A stretch of 64,000 nt of DNA from positions 32,668-96,667 of IMG/VR virus record IMGVR_UViG_3300050011_000393; one strand, 5' to 3'. Position numbers and translations under genes: made by a program. Positions 25,502-48,130 of this stretch are shown here, in pieces. Source of the DNA: a virus. A model generated the notes under the pieces. The model was not told the DNA's origin. It did no database searches and was given only the letters and a program-made list of their open reading frames with translations. Each line of letters opens with the position of its first letter. Position 1 is the first letter of the stretch.

Positions 25502-25846
25502 ATGCGTCTGTTTTGGATTTTATTGTTGGCTCTTTGTTTGATTGGCTGTGCCCAGTCCAGTCCATCACCGATACCGACTACCCTGACGGTCACCCCGGCT
25601 AGTTTGCCCGTGGCGCGCGCTGGGGAGGTCTATGCCGTGCAATTAACCGCCATAGGGGGTTCCGCACCATATTCTTGGTCCGTCGCCTCTGGCGGGCTCC
25701 CAGTAGGGGTTACGTTAAGTCCTGCAGGGGTCTTGGCAGGGGTTCCCCAGCAGTCAGGCTCGTTCAATTTCGTCATTCAAGTAACAGATTCGGCTACATC
25801 CGTGGCTAAAATTCAAATCAGGGGGAAGAAAGATGCAAATTCGTAG
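25502..25846 (+). CDS. Putative lipoprotein with He_PIG-like Ig domain
   Basis: 114 residues. MRLFWILLLALCLIGC is a lipoprotein signal with lipobox LIGC (Cys 16). Residues 30-105 form a He_PIG-type Ig fold: LPVARAGEVYAVQLTAIGG, PYSW, LPVGVTLSPAGVLAGVP. The mature protein would be lipid-anchored at the envelope. It leads a three-gene overlapping cassette of exported proteins. Possible roles are superinfection exclusion or host surface change, but this is inference. Confidence 0.7.
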   Translation: MRLFWILLLALCLIGCAQSSPSPIPTTLTVTPASLPVARAGEVYAVQLTAIGGSAPYSWSVASGGLPVGVTLSPAGVLAGVPQQSGSFNFVIQVTDSATSVAKIQIRGKKDANS

Positions 25847-26507
25847 ATGGTTATTCGCGTTTTTTATGCTGGTGTCGTTCGCACTGCCATGGCAGGCGAA
25901 GGCCCAGGACAAAGCAACTAAATCGCTGACGCTGACCGTCAATTCCGGCACAGTGGCAATTTCGACGGCCACGATTCCCGGGGGCATGGTCGGGTTGGCG
26001 TATTCCACAACGATTGCCGCGACTGGTGGCCTTTCGCCATATAATTTCACAGTGACTGCGGGAGCTCTTCCGGCAGGATTGACTCTCGCATCCACCACGG
26101 GAATTTTATCCGGAACGCCGACAACCGCAGGGTCCAGTACATTCACGGTTCAGGTGGTCGACGCCGAAACACCGACCGTCACTGCTACCCAGGCATACAC
26201 TCTCGTCATTGTGCCTACACTCACGATCACGACTTCAACCTTGCCCGCGGCTAACATCGGCGTCAATTACTCGACGACCATCGTGGCCACAGGCGGAGTG
26301 AGTCCGTACACATTCGCAGTCACGACAGGCGCGCTGCCTTCTGGCTTGACACTCTCATCGACGGGTGTAATTTCAGGGACGCCTACTTCTGCGGGATCCT
26401 TCTCGTTTACCATCACGGTCACCGACAGCGGGTCTAACATTGTCCGCTTGGAGATCAAAACAAACATCGAAATCGCGGCGGTCATTACGAAGGGCGACCG
26501 CTCGTGA
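25833..26507 (+). CDS. Exported protein with two He_PIG-like Ig domains
   Basis: 224 residues. Signal peptide 1-24 (LFAFFMLVSFALPWQAKAQ). Two Ig modules at about 35-125 and 130-210, each with (L/V)PAGLTL-(S/T)-TGILSGTP-type loops followed by a FTVQV strand. Overlaps its neighbours by 14 and 4 bases. No enzyme motif; likely a periplasmic or surface protein. Confidence 0.7.
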   Translation: MQIRRWLFAFFMLVSFALPWQAKAQDKATKSLTLTVNSGTVAISTATIPGGMVGLAYSTTIAATGGLSPYNFTVTAGALPAGLTLASTTGILSGTPTTAGSSTFTVQVVDAETPTVTATQAYTLVIVPTLTITTSTLPAANIGVNYSTTIVATGGVSPYTFAVTTGALPSGLTLSSTGVISGTPTSAGSFSFTITVTDSGSNIVRLEIKTNIEIAAVITKGDRS

Positions 26508-26845
26508 AATTGATTCGCACAGGGGTTTTGGCTCTCGCGTTGCTGGCTTCGGCCAGCGGCGCGGGGGCGCAGGACAAAACAACGCACTCGTATGCAGTCA
26601 CTGTCGGGCATGTGGTGACCTTATCCTGGACTGCGTCAACGACCACGGACGTGACCGCCTATAATATTTATGTCAGCGGGACTTCAGGTGGGCCATACAC
26701 TCGTATTGGGACCACGCCATTGCCGCAGTTTATGGATTTAGGTGGAATCGCAGGCACAAAATACTTTTATGTTGTGACGGCGGTTGACGGCAACGGGGAG
26801 AGCGCATTTTCGAGCGAAGTCTCGGTCACACTTCCCACGCCATAA
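26504..26845 (+). CDS. Exported Fn3-like protein
   Basis: 113 residues from GTG 26504, which overlaps the previous TGA. Signal peptide 1-22, then a Fn3 domain: HVVTLSWTASTTTDVTAYNIY, GGPYTRIG, YFYVVTAVDGNGESAFSSEV. It closes the exported-protein cassette, and the tmRNA locus begins a few bases later. Confidence 0.7.
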   Translation: MKLIRTGVLALALLASASGAGAQDKTTHSYAVTVGHVVTLSWTASTTTDVTAYNIYVSGTSGGPYTRIGTTPLPQFMDLGGIAGTKYFYVVTAVDGNGESAFSSEVSVTLPTP

Positions 26846-26851
26846 TAGTTC

Positions 26852-26879
26852 TTGACATTGTCCGAGAGTTTGATACCAT
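26852..26879 (+). promoter_or_regulatory. sigma70-like promoter of the structured RNA locus
   Basis: TTGACA 26852-26857, 16 bases, TACCAT 26874-26879 with TGA just upstream (extended -10 like). Start expected near 26886. No AGTAC palindrome here, so the RNA may be made from the start of infection. Confidence 0.6.
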
Positions 26880-26885
26880 CAGATT

Positions 26886-27030
26886 TGCCGTTTAAGCGGC
26901 TGGTGGAAGGAAATGGTTCCACAAAGAGACTCGGATTGATGGGACGGTCCTAAAACCATAGGGACGAACAAAGGGATTGATGGTAGGCATCACTCCTAAA
27001 TCCAACATCACCAGAGTCTCTTTGTGGGGC
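26886..27030 (+). ncRNA. Structured leader RNA upstream of the tmRNA
   Basis: A perfect 14-bp helix, CCACAAAGAGACTC (26919-26932) with GAGTCTCTTTGTGG (27014-27027), closes about 80 bases that contain two copies of GGATTGATGG and nested complementary pairs (GATG/CATC, GGATT/AATCC). Upstream is GTGGAA...TTCCAC; downstream is a GGGGC...GCCCC hairpin. I do not recognise a known RNA family; it may be a precursor part of the tmRNA or a separate RNA. Confidence 0.6.
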
Positions 27031-27044
27031 CGTTTCGCCCCAAA

Positions 27045-27357
27045 AGTATAATCGTAGAAAGGCTATTGCTTATCATTCGGACGGGGCTTCGATGCCCCCG
27101 GGTCCACCCGAACGCTAGGAAACCGCAAGGAAGGTCGCCGCAGTGCGGTGGACTCTGAGCACCGTGCCTAGCGTTTCGGTGGGCCCGAATCGGTTTCGAC
27201 GGATGCATGAGAGGTAGTGCTTATTCGGTTCGTCACGGACACGACGTTAAACTGTACCAAACAAACAACAGTCAAGCCCACAAAGCTGGCTAAGGTCCTG
27301 ATGTTTGCGCGTCCTGCGGCATTCGTGCCACAGGCACTCGCAGCCTAAAGGGCTGGG
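27045..27357 (+). ncRNA. ssrA: Circularly permuted (two-piece) tmRNA
   Basis: Rescues stalled ribosomes and tags nascent peptides. The acceptor piece comes first: ATTCGGACGGGGCTTCGATG, the T arm, then CGGGTCC (27099-27105), A and CC at 27106-27108. The coding piece starts at 27181 with GGGCCCG, which pairs with CGGGTCC, followed by the tmRNA-specific TTTCGACGG (27194-27202). P2 forms between 27207-27219 and 27064-27076 with 12 of 13 pairs. The tag frame ends PQALAA-stop, TAA at 27346-27348; the resume codon is not certain (GCG at 27316 would give AAFVPQALAA). The 3' CCA is not encoded in full. 27109-27180 is a removable spacer with its own helix. The 5' end is approximate. Confidence 0.88.
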
Positions 27358-27388
27358 CGGGAGAGCCCGAAAGGTTCTCCCGTTTTTT
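27358..27388 (+). terminator. Rho-independent terminator of the tmRNA
   Basis: CGGGAGAGCC (27358-27367) pairs with GGTTCTCCCG (27373-27382) with one G-U pair, loop CGAAA, then six T. Confidence 0.85.
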
Positions 27389-27405
27389 AATTTACGGAGG
27401 GCTAA

Positions 27406-27636
27406 ATGAGTTCACACAGATTCGACGGATTCACCAAAATTAATTCCGGCCATATCGATGGGGCGCAGTACAACGCTATCGACCATAAGATGCGCGTTCG
27501 CTATCAAAACGGGTATGTCTACGAGGTTCACGGAATTTCTTCGGAAGCCTATCAGGATTTTATGGGCGCGCCATCGCAAGGGGAACACTGGCATGCCCAC
27601 ATCAAGGACAATTACCATGTCGTGCGCGTGAGGTAG
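27406..27636 (+). CDS. KTSC-domain protein
   Basis: 76 residues. FTKINSGHIDGAQYNAIDHKMRVRYQNGYVYEVHGISSEAYQDFMGAPSQG has the order of the KTSC domain: a Ser start, Y-x5-L/M-V-x-F/Y-x-N-G-x-x-Y-x-Y/V, then Val/Ile-x3-Y and A-x-S-x-G. KTSC proteins are small and of unknown function, seen in phages and bacteria. The ATG follows GGAGGG. It lies directly after the tmRNA terminator. Confidence 0.7.
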   Translation: MSSHRFDGFTKINSGHIDGAQYNAIDHKMRVRYQNGYVYEVHGISSEAYQDFMGAPSQGEHWHAHIKDNYHVVRVR

Positions 27637-28624: not shown

Positions 28625-29182
28625 CTATGCGAGTACGAGATTGTCCATGGCATCTTGGGCCATAACACCATCATTTTCTTGTAGATAGACGAAAGCCGAA
28701 CTCGGAGACTTGTGTCCCAAGAATTCACTGACCGCGCCGATGCGCTTCGTCACGGCATATACTGCCATGGCGGCACTGTGGCGGAAGACGTGCGAGTGAG
28801 CATAGCTGCTGTGAACGCCAGCAACGGCAAAATACCGAACCAGCGTTTCGTTGTAGTACTGGCGGCTGAGTCCGCCGAAGATCTTGGACAGACCCTTGGT
28901 CGCCGCCAGGGCGATCAGGGGAGTCATGTCGACCGTCGGGTCCTCCGAGATGTGAAGGTTGCGCACGACAACTTTACCGCGCTTGGCTGCGCCGACCCGA
29001 ACGACCCACTTGCCGTCGCGCTGGAAGATATCTTCCCCGCGCAGGTCCAGCATCTGGGAGACGCGCGTGCCAGTGTAGAACATCACCAGCATGGCCATGT
29101 GGTGCAGGTGGCTCTTCTCGGTCTTGGCTTCTTGCGCCGCTCGGAAGACTTTTGCCAGGTCGCTCTCGGGTAAGTAATTCAT
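28625..29182 (-). CDS. Minimal tyrosine recombinase
   Basis: 185 residues from ATG 29182 (AGGAGG 7 bases upstream). Catalytic set: Arg40 in TGTRVSQML, a Lys at 67 or 70 (AAKRGK), H131-V-F-R134, His157 in GHKSPSSAF and nucleophile Tyr166 in VYL. The N-terminal arm-binding and core-binding domains of phage integrases are absent, so only the catalytic domain is present. It could resolve genome multimers or catalyse an unusual integration. No att-like core was recognised. Controlled from the AGTAC operator at 29231. Confidence 0.8.
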   Translation of the reverse strand: MNYLPESDLAKVFRAAQEAKTEKSHLHHMAMLVMFYTGTRVSQMLDLRGEDIFQRDGKWVVRVGAAKRGKVVVRNLHISEDPTVDMTPLIALAATKGLSKIFGGLSRQYYNETLVRYFAVAGVHSSYAHSHVFRHSAAMAVYAVTKRIGAVSEFLGHKSPSSAFVYLQENDGVMAQDAMDNLVLA

Positions 29183-29230
29183 GTCAGTTGCCTCCTGAAC
29201 TGAACCCATTATGGGGGAATGACCTGGCCT

Positions 29231-29271
29231 AGCGCAATAGTACGAAAGTACTGTTTTTCGACTAGTACTAG
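29231..29271 (-). promoter_or_regulatory. AGTAC operator pair upstream of the recombinase
   Basis: AGTACGAAAGTACT (29239-29252), 9 bases, CTAGTACTAG (29262-29271). Forty bases here (29231-29270) are identical to 35730-35769. On the minus strand TACTAT follows the first palindrome and could be the -10. Confidence 0.7.
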
Positions 29272-29277
29272 GGGTGG

Positions 29278-29694
29278 TTACTCTGCCCCTTTTGTCTTGA
29301 TGAAGTGCTCGATTCTGTTTACGCCTGCGCGCGCCCTGCCTGCTTGGGATCTGGCTCGAACATACGCCGTTGCGTATTTGGCGGGCCACTCCGAACGAAA
29401 GAATAACCGAAGTCTTTGGTTTGCGGTTAGCCCAAGCGCGCGTGTTGCGAAGATCTCCACGGAATGGCCTGAAGGGAGATCGTCAAAGCTGCTGGGTTTC
29501 TTCAAATCGAGTTTGTGCTCGAGGACGTAAGCCGCTCCAGCCAGACAGCAGGCGGTTCCGCAGAGGGCTTTTTCATCCCCGAGAACAGAAGAGGACTTGG
29601 TTGGCTGCAGCCAGTCGGACATGTCAAATCGACCTTTTTCTTGCAGGATGAATTTCTGAATCTTTCTCAGCAGCTTTGTATTAATTCCGCTCAT
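29278..29694 (-). CDS. Hypothetical phage protein (138 aa)
   Basis: I use ATG 29694 behind AAGGAG. Contains ALCGTACCLAGAAYVLE near residue 43, a Cys-containing turn common in a phage family of unknown function, and an Arg-rich C-terminal helix. It ends beside the AGTAC operators. Confidence 0.6.
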   Translation of the reverse strand: MSGINTKLLRKIQKFILQEKGRFDMSDWLQPTKSSSVLGDEKALCGTACCLAGAAYVLEHKLDLKKPSSFDDLPSGHSVEIFATRALGLTANQRLRLFFRSEWPAKYATAYVRARSQAGRARAGVNRIEHFIKTKGAE

Positions 29695-31625: not shown

Positions 31626-31700
31626 TGGTAGTCGGGCGTGGGATTGAACCACGGACCTGGCACTTATAAGGTGCCTGCTCTACCACTGAGCTACCCGACT
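31626..31700 (-). tRNA. tRNA-Ile (anticodon UAU)
   Basis: 75 bases with CCA encoded. Acceptor AGTCGGG/CCCGACT, D arm GCTC/GAGC, anticodon stem GGCAC/GTGCC with loop CTTATAA (anticodon TAT, reads ATA), T arm CGTGG-TTCAATC-CCACG. All stems are fully paired. It reads a codon often rare in GC-moderate genomes. Confidence 0.93.
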
Positions 31701-43892: not shown

Positions 43893-44122
43893 AAATTAAT
43901 CAGTACGGAGCCGTAATCCTGACGCAGCGCGACATTAAAGTTGAAGGTTGGCTCGTCGAGCGTGAACTCACGGACCCGCCCGAGTCTGAGGCAACCCACG
44001 AACAGCTCTTGCTTGAAGTGGTGATCCCTTGGGCGCAGAAGAAATTGAACGCGGCCATTCTGCAGAACCTGCAACGTATCTCGAAAGAAATTAAAGAAGC
44101 AAAAAACCCGACGGCGAATTAA
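43889..44122 (+). CDS. Hypothetical protein (77 aa)
   Basis: From ATG 43889, 4-base overlap. Strand start, acidic loop (TDPPESEATHEQ), helix (VIPWAQKKLNAAILQNLQRI). The longer frame from 43817 is not needed. Unknown. Confidence 0.5.
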   Translation: MKINQYGAVILTQRDIKVEGWLVERELTDPPESEATHEQLLLEVVIPWAQKKLNAAILQNLQRISKEIKEAKNPTAN

Positions 44123-44406
44123 TGCGATATCAAATTCGACTAAACCCTAAAGCGTTTAACCCACTCACGCTGCAAGTGATTGCTAAGCGGCTTTGGGAAG
44201 TTGAGCAGGTCGGGAACCGCGACAGTGAGCCTGTGATCTGGCATTGCGCGGATGTGCGCATCGACGACCAGCACGTCCGAGAATTATTTCAGATGCCGAA
44301 ACCAGGCGAGCCGCCTTGGCAGATAGAACGCTACGGGACTTGCGCTCGCGGGCAAGATGACGCAATAGTGATTGTGACAGGGCCAGCAGATGCTTCAGGA
44401 AATTGA
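44122..44406 (+). CDS. Hypothetical protein (94 aa)
   Basis: Shares one base with the upstream stop. Alpha/beta with IWHCADVRIDDQHVRELFQMP. Unknown. Confidence 0.5.
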   Translation: MRYQIRLNPKAFNPLTLQVIAKRLWEVEQVGNRDSEPVIWHCADVRIDDQHVRELFQMPKPGEPPWQIERYGTCARGQDDAIVIVTGPADASGN

Positions 44407-45959: not shown

Positions 45960-46535
45960 ATGCGTTTTTACTCTTATTTGTGGCTTCGAGAAGACGGGTC
46001 CCCATACTATGCGGGAAAAGGCTCAGGTAATAGGGCGTACAAAAGTCATAGACATCGCGGGCTTTGTCCACCAAAAAATCGAGATTTGATTCTTGTGTTT
46101 TTTCATGAATCGGAAGATGAGGCTTTTGGCTCTGAGAGAGCGTTCATTCGCTGGTTCGGCCGCAAAGACTTGGGTATGGGGTGTCTTATAAATCACACGG
46201 ACGGCGGAGATCAACCGCCGAGCGCGAAAGGCCGAAAACGGTCTGCAGCGTTTATTCAAAAAATGAGAGATCGAACTCCAACCATCCCCACGCCCGCAAG
46301 TAGAGAGAAGAATCGGATTGCGCATTTAGGACGAAAGCACACCCAAGAATCAAAAAAGAAACAGTCAGAGAAAATGATGGGGCGGTTGAAATCGGAGGAG
46401 ACCAAAGCAAAAATGTCTTTGGCCCAGATAGGAAATTCTAAATTTAAGGGGCGACATCATACCGCCGAGACCAAGGCTAAAATGTCAGCCATTCGATTTG
46501 AGCGTTACGGAAAAGGAGCGATATGTCGAAATTAG
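45960..46535 (+). CDS. GIY-YIG homing endonuclease (sister of 62081)
   Basis: 191 residues. GIY-YIG variant YSYLWLREDGSPYYAGKGSG (residues 4-23), then AFIRWFGRKDLGMGCL with the catalytic-domain Arg and acidic residues. C-terminal NUMOD3-like motifs (GRLKSEETKAKMSLAQIG; GRHHTAETKAKMSA). The last 13 bases overlap the chaperonin start. Very similar in its first 85 residues to the gene at 62081, so the two are sister mobile elements inserted at different places. Confidence 0.85.
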   Translation: MRFYSYLWLREDGSPYYAGKGSGNRAYKSHRHRGLCPPKNRDLILVFFHESEDEAFGSERAFIRWFGRKDLGMGCLINHTDGGDQPPSAKGRKRSAAFIQKMRDRTPTIPTPASREKNRIAHLGRKHTQESKKKQSEKMMGRLKSEETKAKMSLAQIGNSKFKGRHHTAETKAKMSAIRFERYGKGAICRN

Positions 46536-48130
46536 TAAAACATGGAGCAGAGGCCCGCGAGGCTATTTTAAAGGGGGTCGATTTTATAGCCGACGTAGTT
46601 GCTCTGACTGAAGGACCTCGCGGAAGAAATATTATTATGGGACAACGCGCTTTAGGCCAATCACCTCGCATAACTAAAGATGGAGTAAGCGTTGCGAATT
46701 ATGTTGACCCCTCAGATTCCACGGAGCAGATGGGCGCGGATTTAATTCGAGAAGCGTGTCAGAAAACGGATAACTCTGTTGGGGATGGGACTACCTGCAC
46801 CGCCGTTCTTGCTCGCGCTATGGTACACGCAGGGTTTGATCTGATTGATAAGGGCGCTAACCCTATGGCGATAGAGCGCGGGATTCATAAGGCGACCGAT
46901 GTCGTCATTTCTCGTATTCAAAAAATGGCTGTTGAAATCACACCAGAGAAAGTTTTTCATGTCGCAACAGTCTCGGCTCATGGCGACACCGAAATTGGTC
47001 GCTTAGTCGCAGACGCAGTTCAGAAGGCAGGGAAAGACGGAGTAGTGACGGCGGAACCCTCCTCAACCTCCGCAACTTATGTGGAGACCGTTGCAGGACT
47101 GGAGCTCGAAAAATCTAATTTGGTCTCCCCCGCCTTTATCACACACCCTGAAACTATGTCTGCGGAGCTTTCGAATTGCCATATTCTTCTCTGGGAAGGC
47201 GTGATTGCCACTGCGAAGTCCGTCGTGCCGATATTGAAACAACTCAAGGATTTGCAAGACTCTGGCGCTGGCGGCGCGCTGCTAATTATTGCGGGCGGGT
47301 ATGAGGCCGAAGCCTTGTCTTGTATCATCAACAACAAGATCAGCCTCAAGCTGCCTTTGATAGCGGTCAGGATGGAAGCCTACGGAGACCGCCGCAAGGA
47401 GGTCATGCGGGACATCGCGGCATTGACTGGCGGCAAGGCGTTTACAGAAGACCTAGGGCTGAAAATCGATAACGTGAAGTTCGCGGAACTCGGCCAGGCG
47501 CGCAAGGTCGTCACCACCATGGCGAAGACCCAGATCCTCGGCGGCAAGGGCAAGCAGGATGAGGTTGCGGGGCGCGTGGCGCACATTCAAACCCTGATTG
47601 AGTCTGTCTCACCAGCCGAACGCAGTCCGTTGCGTCAGAGGCTCGCTGCGCTGCTGGGTGGCATCACTGTGATCAAGGTCGGGGGCGTAACCGTCACCGA
47701 AATGGAAGAGAAGAAAGACCGCGTCGTGGACGCGCTCTCGGCCGCCAAGGCTGCAGTGGAGTCTGGCATCGTTCCTGGCGGCGGCACTGCGCTCCTGCAT
47801 GCAGCGAAAGTTCTTGATGAGCTGGCGGTTCCTGAAGCCGAAGTTGCGGGTGTGCAGGTAGTGCATACCGCGTGCCATGCAGTTACCAAACAAATTGCAG
47901 CCAATGCAGGTCTCGACGGCGAACTGATTATTGCTCAATTATTTTTATCGCCCGGGGAGCAAGGCTATAACGCCTTCACGGACAAGTTTGAAGACCTCGT
48001 CGAGTCAGGCATCATCGACCCCCTGAAGGTCGTGGTCGAGTCCTTGAAAAACGCTTCGGCGGTCTCATGCTCGATTCTTACCATGGGTGCGACGATCAGC
48101 GAAATCAGACAGGAGAAATCGAATGGCTAA
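46523..48130 (+). CDS. groEL: Phage chaperonin GroEL (60 kDa-type)
   Basis: 535 residues, against about 548 for the E. coli protein. ATP-site motifs are intact: TEGPRGRN near 29-36, TKDGVSV with Asp53, GDGTT near 87-91, the DALSAAKAA stretch with a candidate catalytic Asp near residue 400, and GIVPGGGTALL near 415. The apical segment is present but divergent. The GGM tail is missing; it ends ...REQEKSNG-like. Should form a folding ring, probably with the GroES-like protein at 48531. ATG follows AAAGGAGCG inside the homing endonuclease end. Between host acquisition and capsid use, the second is more likely since terminase follows. Confidence 0.93.
   Translation: MSKLVKHGAEAREAILKGVDFIADVVALTEGPRGRNIIMGQRALGQSPRITKDGVSVANYVDPSDSTEQMGADLIREACQKTDNSVGDGTTCTAVLARAMVHAGFDLIDKGANPMAIERGIHKATDVVISRIQKMAVEITPEKVFHVATVSAHGDTEIGRLVADAVQKAGKDGVVTAEPSSTSATYVETVAGLELEKSNLVSPAFITHPETMSAELSNCHILLWEGVIATAKSVVPILKQLKDLQDSGAGGALLIIAGGYEAEALSCIINNKISLKLPLIAVRMEAYGDRRKEVMRDIAALTGGKAFTEDLGLKIDNVKFAELGQARKVVTTMAKTQILGGKGKQDEVAGRVAHIQTLIESVSPAERSPLRQRLAALLGGITVIKVGGVTVTEMEEKKDRVVDALSAAKAAVESGIVPGGGTALLHAAKVLDELAVPEAEVAGVQVVHTACHAVTKQIAANAGLDGELIIAQLFLSPGEQGYNAFTDKFEDLVESGIIDPLKVVVESLKNASAVSCSILTMGATISEIRQEKSNG

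Follow-up and report, generated by a model that had tools for sequence, protein, structure and literature searches.

Organisation of the locus

The analysed DNA, a stretch of 64,000 nucleotides (hereafter the window), belongs to a virus record of 96,667 bases that carries terminase, portal and GroEL-like genes. It contains a locus that we read as a phage-encoded, circularly permuted gene for transfer-messenger RNA (tmRNA), the RNA that frees stuck ribosomes. The features of the locus are given below, with the basis of each assignment in brackets.

26852-26879, + strand: sigma70-like promoter TTGACA-16-TACCAT, with TG ahead of the second hexamer (10/12 match)
26899-27041, + strand: structured 5' leader, GGTGGA(A/G)G and then an approximately 25-bp helix with smaller hairpins inside (fold)
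27050-27079, + strand: P2 3' strand, in the acceptor piece (RF04321 match, pairing analysis)
27083-27098, + strand: T-arm GGGGC-TTCGAT-GCCCC with a 6-nt loop (descriptor)
27099-27108, + strand: acceptor 3' strand CGGGTCC (27099-27105), then ACC (27106-27108) (RF04321, descriptor, pairing)
27109-27180, + strand: intervening sequence, a long hairpin extending the acceptor stem, with removal predicted (pairing analysis, fold)
27181-27187, + strand: acceptor 5' strand GGGCCCG, with which the coding piece begins (RF04321, descriptor)
27188-27200, + strand: D-loop-like segment AATCGGTTTCGAC (RF04321, descriptor)
27200-27230, + strand: P2 5' strand (duplex -29.5 kcal/mol)
27231-27262, + strand: PK1-like region with hairpin CGTC/GACG ahead of the resume codon (RF04321 alignment; second pseudoknot stem by eye only)
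27271-27348, + strand: tag reading frame VKPTKLAKVLMFARPAAFVPQALAA, then TAA; resume codon GTC (alignment with relatives)
27341-27355, + strand: H5-like hairpin CAGCC-TAAAG-GGCTG, the loop containing the stop codon (read from the sequence)
27355-27391, + strand: intrinsic-terminator-like hairpin (27355-27385) and T run (terminator scan)
27406-27636, + strand: KTSC-domain gene, a neighbour outside the tmRNA (PF13619, 51.5 bits)

Directly upstream of the transcription unit are two genes (25833-26845) whose products have Ig-like (He_PIG) domains and weak fn3 domains. A reading frame similar to the downstream neighbour follows the tmRNA in the related loci L050-L053 (by eye, unscored). Apart from the tmRNA, the window yielded a single RNA gene, a tRNA-Ile with anticodon TAT (31626-31700, - strand), and the phage-encoded GroEL-like chaperonin was located at 46523-48130 (phrog_5725, 402.6 bits).

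Identification of the permuted tmRNA gene

The initial annotation had proposed a permuted, two-piece tmRNA in a phage, and a covariance model built for permuted forms agreed with it. The Rfam family tmRNA_permuted (RF04321) matched window positions 27050-27348 with 70.3 bits against a cut-off of 47 (E = 1.7e-11 for the window). A strict descriptor, which required TCGA together with a T-stem free of mismatches and a permuted-order acceptor stem paired over all 7 bp, gave a single match in the window, at 27105 on the + strand, with none on the - strand and none in 20 shuffles of 64 kb. In the other loci (420 kb, both strands counted) the same descriptor returned two matches only, both of them real tmRNAs. 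ARAGORN made no tmRNA call for the window copy, also when the region was run with other settings, and reported the tRNA-Ile alone; all six nearest relatives were called as permuted tmRNAs by the same program. Acceptor and P2 pairing, the tag frame, and the terminase and portal genes of the record complete the case. The locus is thus, in our reading, very probably a functional two-piece tmRNA gene of the phage that operates with host SmpB.

The acceptor half precedes the coding half, as first described, and the coding half was kept at 27181-27348. The acceptor half had been placed at 27064-27108; on that side the RNA extends further, with the P2 strand beginning at about 27050 and the leader at about 26899. 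The predicted acceptor stem GGGCCCG/CGGGTCC formed with 7/7 pairs, G3-U70 included, while P2 proved to be an interrupted helix in the pairing analysis. The 6-nt T-loop was also present in L050 and L126. GGTTTCGACGG was located at 27192-27202. The stop codon stands inside a small hairpin, which is usual for H5. Position 27109 is C, so CCA is incompletely encoded and its final A must be added. The intervening sequence formed 14 inward pairs from 27106 with three interruptions (best shuffle, 11), and since it pairs inward from the acceptor stem, the precursor is expected to be a long hairpin joining both pieces.

Covariation was evaluated in 17 distinct phage copies, a set that includes close relatives, so that the counts are not independent events. 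The acceptor stem was 7/7 paired in 17/17 copies, and pair 3 was G3-U70 in all of them. Pairs 1, 2 and 7 were G-C throughout, and positions 4, 5 and 6 showed four, four and three Watson-Crick types, respectively, with compensatory changes.

Promoter, leader and terminator

The claim that the gene has its own promoter and terminator is supported by a sigma70-like site starting at 26852 and, at 27355-27385, a hairpin of terminator-like form. Two promoter-like sites were detected in the region against 0.5 expected by chance, and 0.9 terminator-like sites would be expected by chance (both from shuffles of the region). TTGACA-type sites also occur directly upstream of the tmRNA gene in L050, L051, L052, L117, L119 and L124, and the loop motif of the terminator hairpin, CCCGAAAGG, recurs in several relatives.

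The long helix of the leader is formed by strands 26910-26934 and 27011-27036 (z = -7.1). Across the window, L050, L053 and L054 the helix scored z = -5.3 to -8.0 (relatives, -5.3 to -6.6) with differing pairing sequences, and no helix of this type (about 25 bp) was found in L049, L051 and L052. An initial reading of the leader, a helix containing two pseudoknots, gave way to a long helix with hairpins inside it, which the fold favours. The idea of a conserved peptide gene was also rejected, the ATG after GGTGGAGG being missing from L049, L051 and L052, as was that of a known riboswitch, since nothing in Rfam matched with an E-value of 1 or less. The leader might stabilise the 5' end or serve as a site for RNase III processing. 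GGTGGAGG with its hairpin recurs (window 26900-26909, L128:3705 and the upstream regions of L118 and L123), several times just after a promoter and ahead of a tmRNA or a small reading frame. Because the same combination lies between promoter and reading frame in G016, a genome with no detected tmRNA, the leader may represent a 5' element of wider use in phages.

The tag reading frame

The window tag comprises 25 residues with a degron-like C-terminus ending in ALAA. The reading frame had been predicted to end in PQALAA-TAA, and the tag at 27271-27345 indeed ends ...VPQALAA, with TAA at 27346-27348. The resume codon of tmRNAs is usually Ala and sometimes Gly, a feature that is not strictly defining (PMC3968760). 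It is GCN in 12/17 phage copies; in the window the alignment places GTC (Val) there, which is neither Ala nor Gly. Within the seven-member window clade, the variable tag columns over ten alignable codons were distributed 5/1/9 by codon position, and V, F and the last two A of the tag were fixed in 7/7 members with changed third bases. This variation is the pattern expected from translation of the tag, which, judged from these comparisons, is under selection. Tags in the phage set were 24-37 residues long, and most ended in LAA or similar. Elsewhere in the set, L115 (G039) and L116 (G040) carry the tag ANENSTLMEALLAGITVSNDNETSNEMLPELVNVS without an LAA-type end, with a tRNA cluster nearby.

Distribution among relatives and cultured phages

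A terminase search yielded 47 loci, and RF04321 scored above its cut-off in 6/30 of the corresponding records, whereas the one-piece family RF00023 gave no above-cut-off match in the 30 terminase-related records. Permuted tmRNA was present in seven records of the window phage clade (the window and six relatives); in G016, a large clade member, no tmRNA was found by the tools used. The nearest isolate by portal and terminase was Tunturiibacter phage Tunturi_3, with an identity of only 22-25%, and it is only from this distant likeness that we infer an Acidobacteriota host for the window phage.

Tunturi_3, a cultured podophage of Acidobacteriota, has an unannotated RF04321 match at PP885686.1 88172-88396 (L070:39172-39396, - strand), and the word tmRNA is absent from the paper describing this phage. 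Among Tunturi_3-like records the family matched 12/25, including 7/7 of at least 85 kb. Tunturi_4 carries an unannotated permuted tmRNA at PP885687.1 43532-43941 (L138:1329-1738, - strand; RF04321, 79.2 bits), as does the 309-kb jumbo phage Tunturi_5 (PP885688.1, L137:1344-1640, - strand; 86.4 bits). The beta model RF01850, the one applied to Tunturi_1, found no match there. A further pattern scan recovered 18 viral contigs, some above 200 kb, and RF04321 matched 14/14 of those tested with Rfam. No prophage copies were found in genome contigs by terminase alignment, nor was the tmRNA DNA pattern found there; viral contigs contained no exact copy of the tmRNA core, and a blastn search of isolate phages with the window tmRNA as query found nothing.

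Several neighbouring elements were recorded in the isolates. A tRNA-like element (L070:38994-39051) lies just downstream of the Tunturi_3 tmRNA. The Tunturi_4 tmRNA is directly downstream of an annotated RF-1 domain peptide chain release factor gene (43946-44293), so that two functions in ribosome rescue may be neighbours there. An RF-1 domain gene is present in Tunturi_3 as well (82469-82807), and no RF-1-domain protein was found in the window clade.

Relationship to known tmRNAs

The window gene shares its permutation order, tRNA-like domain and intervening sequence with the alphaproteobacterial, betaproteobacterial and cyanobacterial lineages. It scored below cut-off with each of their models: 22 bits against 50 for alpha (RF01849), 48.8 against 84 for beta (RF01850; best relative, L049, 70.7) and 29.1 against 70 for cyano (RF01851), the last being weak evidence, as a cyanobacterial control genome also fell below. 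Five phage contigs from the pattern scan scored 140.9 with the beta model, which thus recognises phage copies of its own lineage; this phage positive control applies to the beta model only and not to alpha or cyano. Because the window copy stays below all three cut-offs while the beta model scores phage contigs at 140.9, the tmRNA of the window clade is, on these model scores, divergent. Standard one-piece tmRNA (RF00023) shares the predicted function and differs in the order of the halves.

Permuted phage tmRNAs are already known from Melnitz, pelagiphages and cyanophages. One study described a two-piece tmRNA in phage Melnitz and, by ARAGORN, assigned this form to 53/133 unique phage tmRNA structures, 50/53 of them marine or aquatic (PMC9004378). 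Hence, the suggestion that a phage copy would be unusual has to be moderated; what is unusual here is the divergent lineage in Acidobacteriota-linked phages, the long tags and the structured leader. Like the window gene, the tmRNAs of methylophage Melnitz, pelagiphage Mosig and other marine phages are phage-borne and permuted, with a complete tag frame and no need of a phage SmpB (PMC9004378). The marine-phage tmRNAs group with alphaproteobacterial or cyanobacterial tmRNA (PMC9004378), whereas the window copy reaches the cut-off of no lineage model and has a longer tag. Melnitz has a glutamine riboswitch (PMC9004378), while the window gene matched no riboswitch family. As far as the cited sources go, the large, for the most part unannotated phage set linked to Acidobacteriota, its spread over podo-, sipho- and jumbo myophages, the tags of 24-37 residues and the structured leader look new. 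It is conceivable, if doubtful, that phages of Acidobacteriota hold one or more permuted tmRNA lines of their own, apart from alpha, beta and cyano, long kept by phages and with longer tags that alter the fate of rescued proteins.

Proposed function and alternative explanations

Sequence and covariation establish the form of the gene, its paired elements and the selection on its tag; transcription, cleavage, charging, SmpB use, degradation and a benefit to the phage are steps that we infer. A single transcript would run from about 26886 to about 27390, beginning with the acceptor half and continuing into the coding half, and acceptor stem and intervening sequence would fold into one long hairpin. 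Cleavage by RNase P ahead of 27181, 3' processing up to 27108 and completion of the CCA end by the host CCA enzyme would leave two pieces held together by the acceptor stem and P2. This RNA would be charged with alanine via G3-U70 and bound by host SmpB; no SmpB gene was found in the phage record, which fits the use of the host protein. It would then enter ribosomes stalled on broken messages and make them translate its 25-residue tag with the ALAA end, directing the tagged products to host proteases. The phage would benefit from ribosome recycling during the destruction of host messages. The proposed processing and joint action with SmpB follow the two-piece tmRNA of bacteria, which works in Caulobacter (reviewed in PMC3985003). 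Counted against a functional reading were the ARAGORN miss, the 6-nt T-loop, the GTC resume codon and the lack of a detected tmRNA in G016.

The locus might instead be a relic or attachment-site copy of host ssrA, left by integration or imprecise excision at a tmRNA gene and devoid of its own function. tmRNA genes are common integration sites (PMC11915505), and an integrase gene (28625-29389) lies about 1.2 kb from the window tmRNA. However, the gene is whole and has promoter and terminator sites, compensatory changes in the stem and a bias by codon position are seen across many phages, and the annotated integrase of Tunturi_3 is about 25 kb from its tmRNA. We regard such an origin as very improbable. 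Hardly more credible is a decoy role, in which the RNA would bind SmpB, EF-Tu or AlaRS of the host and so block the host's own trans-translation. Inhibition has a precedent in mycobacteriophage DS6A, whose tagless tmRNA inhibits the endogenous one (PMC11915505), and the 6-nt T-loop and Val resume codon are unusual enough to suit it. A decoy needs no tag, though, and the window gene differs from the DS6A tmRNA-like RNA in just this respect: its tag frame is complete, evolves in a coding-like manner within the clade and preserves a degron-like C-terminus.

A variant that accepts a working tmRNA gives the long tag an extra purpose, for example to shift which protease is used or to resist recognition of the tag by the host. 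The tags of 24-37 residues exceed the most frequent tmRNA tag length of 10 (PMC11915505), and an inner motif resembling AKVLxFAR..FVP is shared by the window-clade tags and that of the unrelated phage Tunturi_5. Nevertheless, most tags end in LAA or similar, and the recorded tags of tmRNAs in general have 8-35 residues (PMC3968760), which leaves an added purpose unlikely, albeit less so than a relic or a decoy. The preferred reading remains the functional two-piece tmRNA that uses host SmpB.

Surveys based on ARAGORN undercount permuted phage tmRNAs, since the program misses the window copy, Tunturi_3, Tunturi_5 and several relatives, and the earlier, mainly marine picture of two-piece phage tmRNA may partly reflect this undercount. 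The retention of tmRNA in many diverse soil phages, three of them cultured, suggests that trans-translation matters in infection, and the cultured Tunturi phages provide isolates in which its role can be tested.
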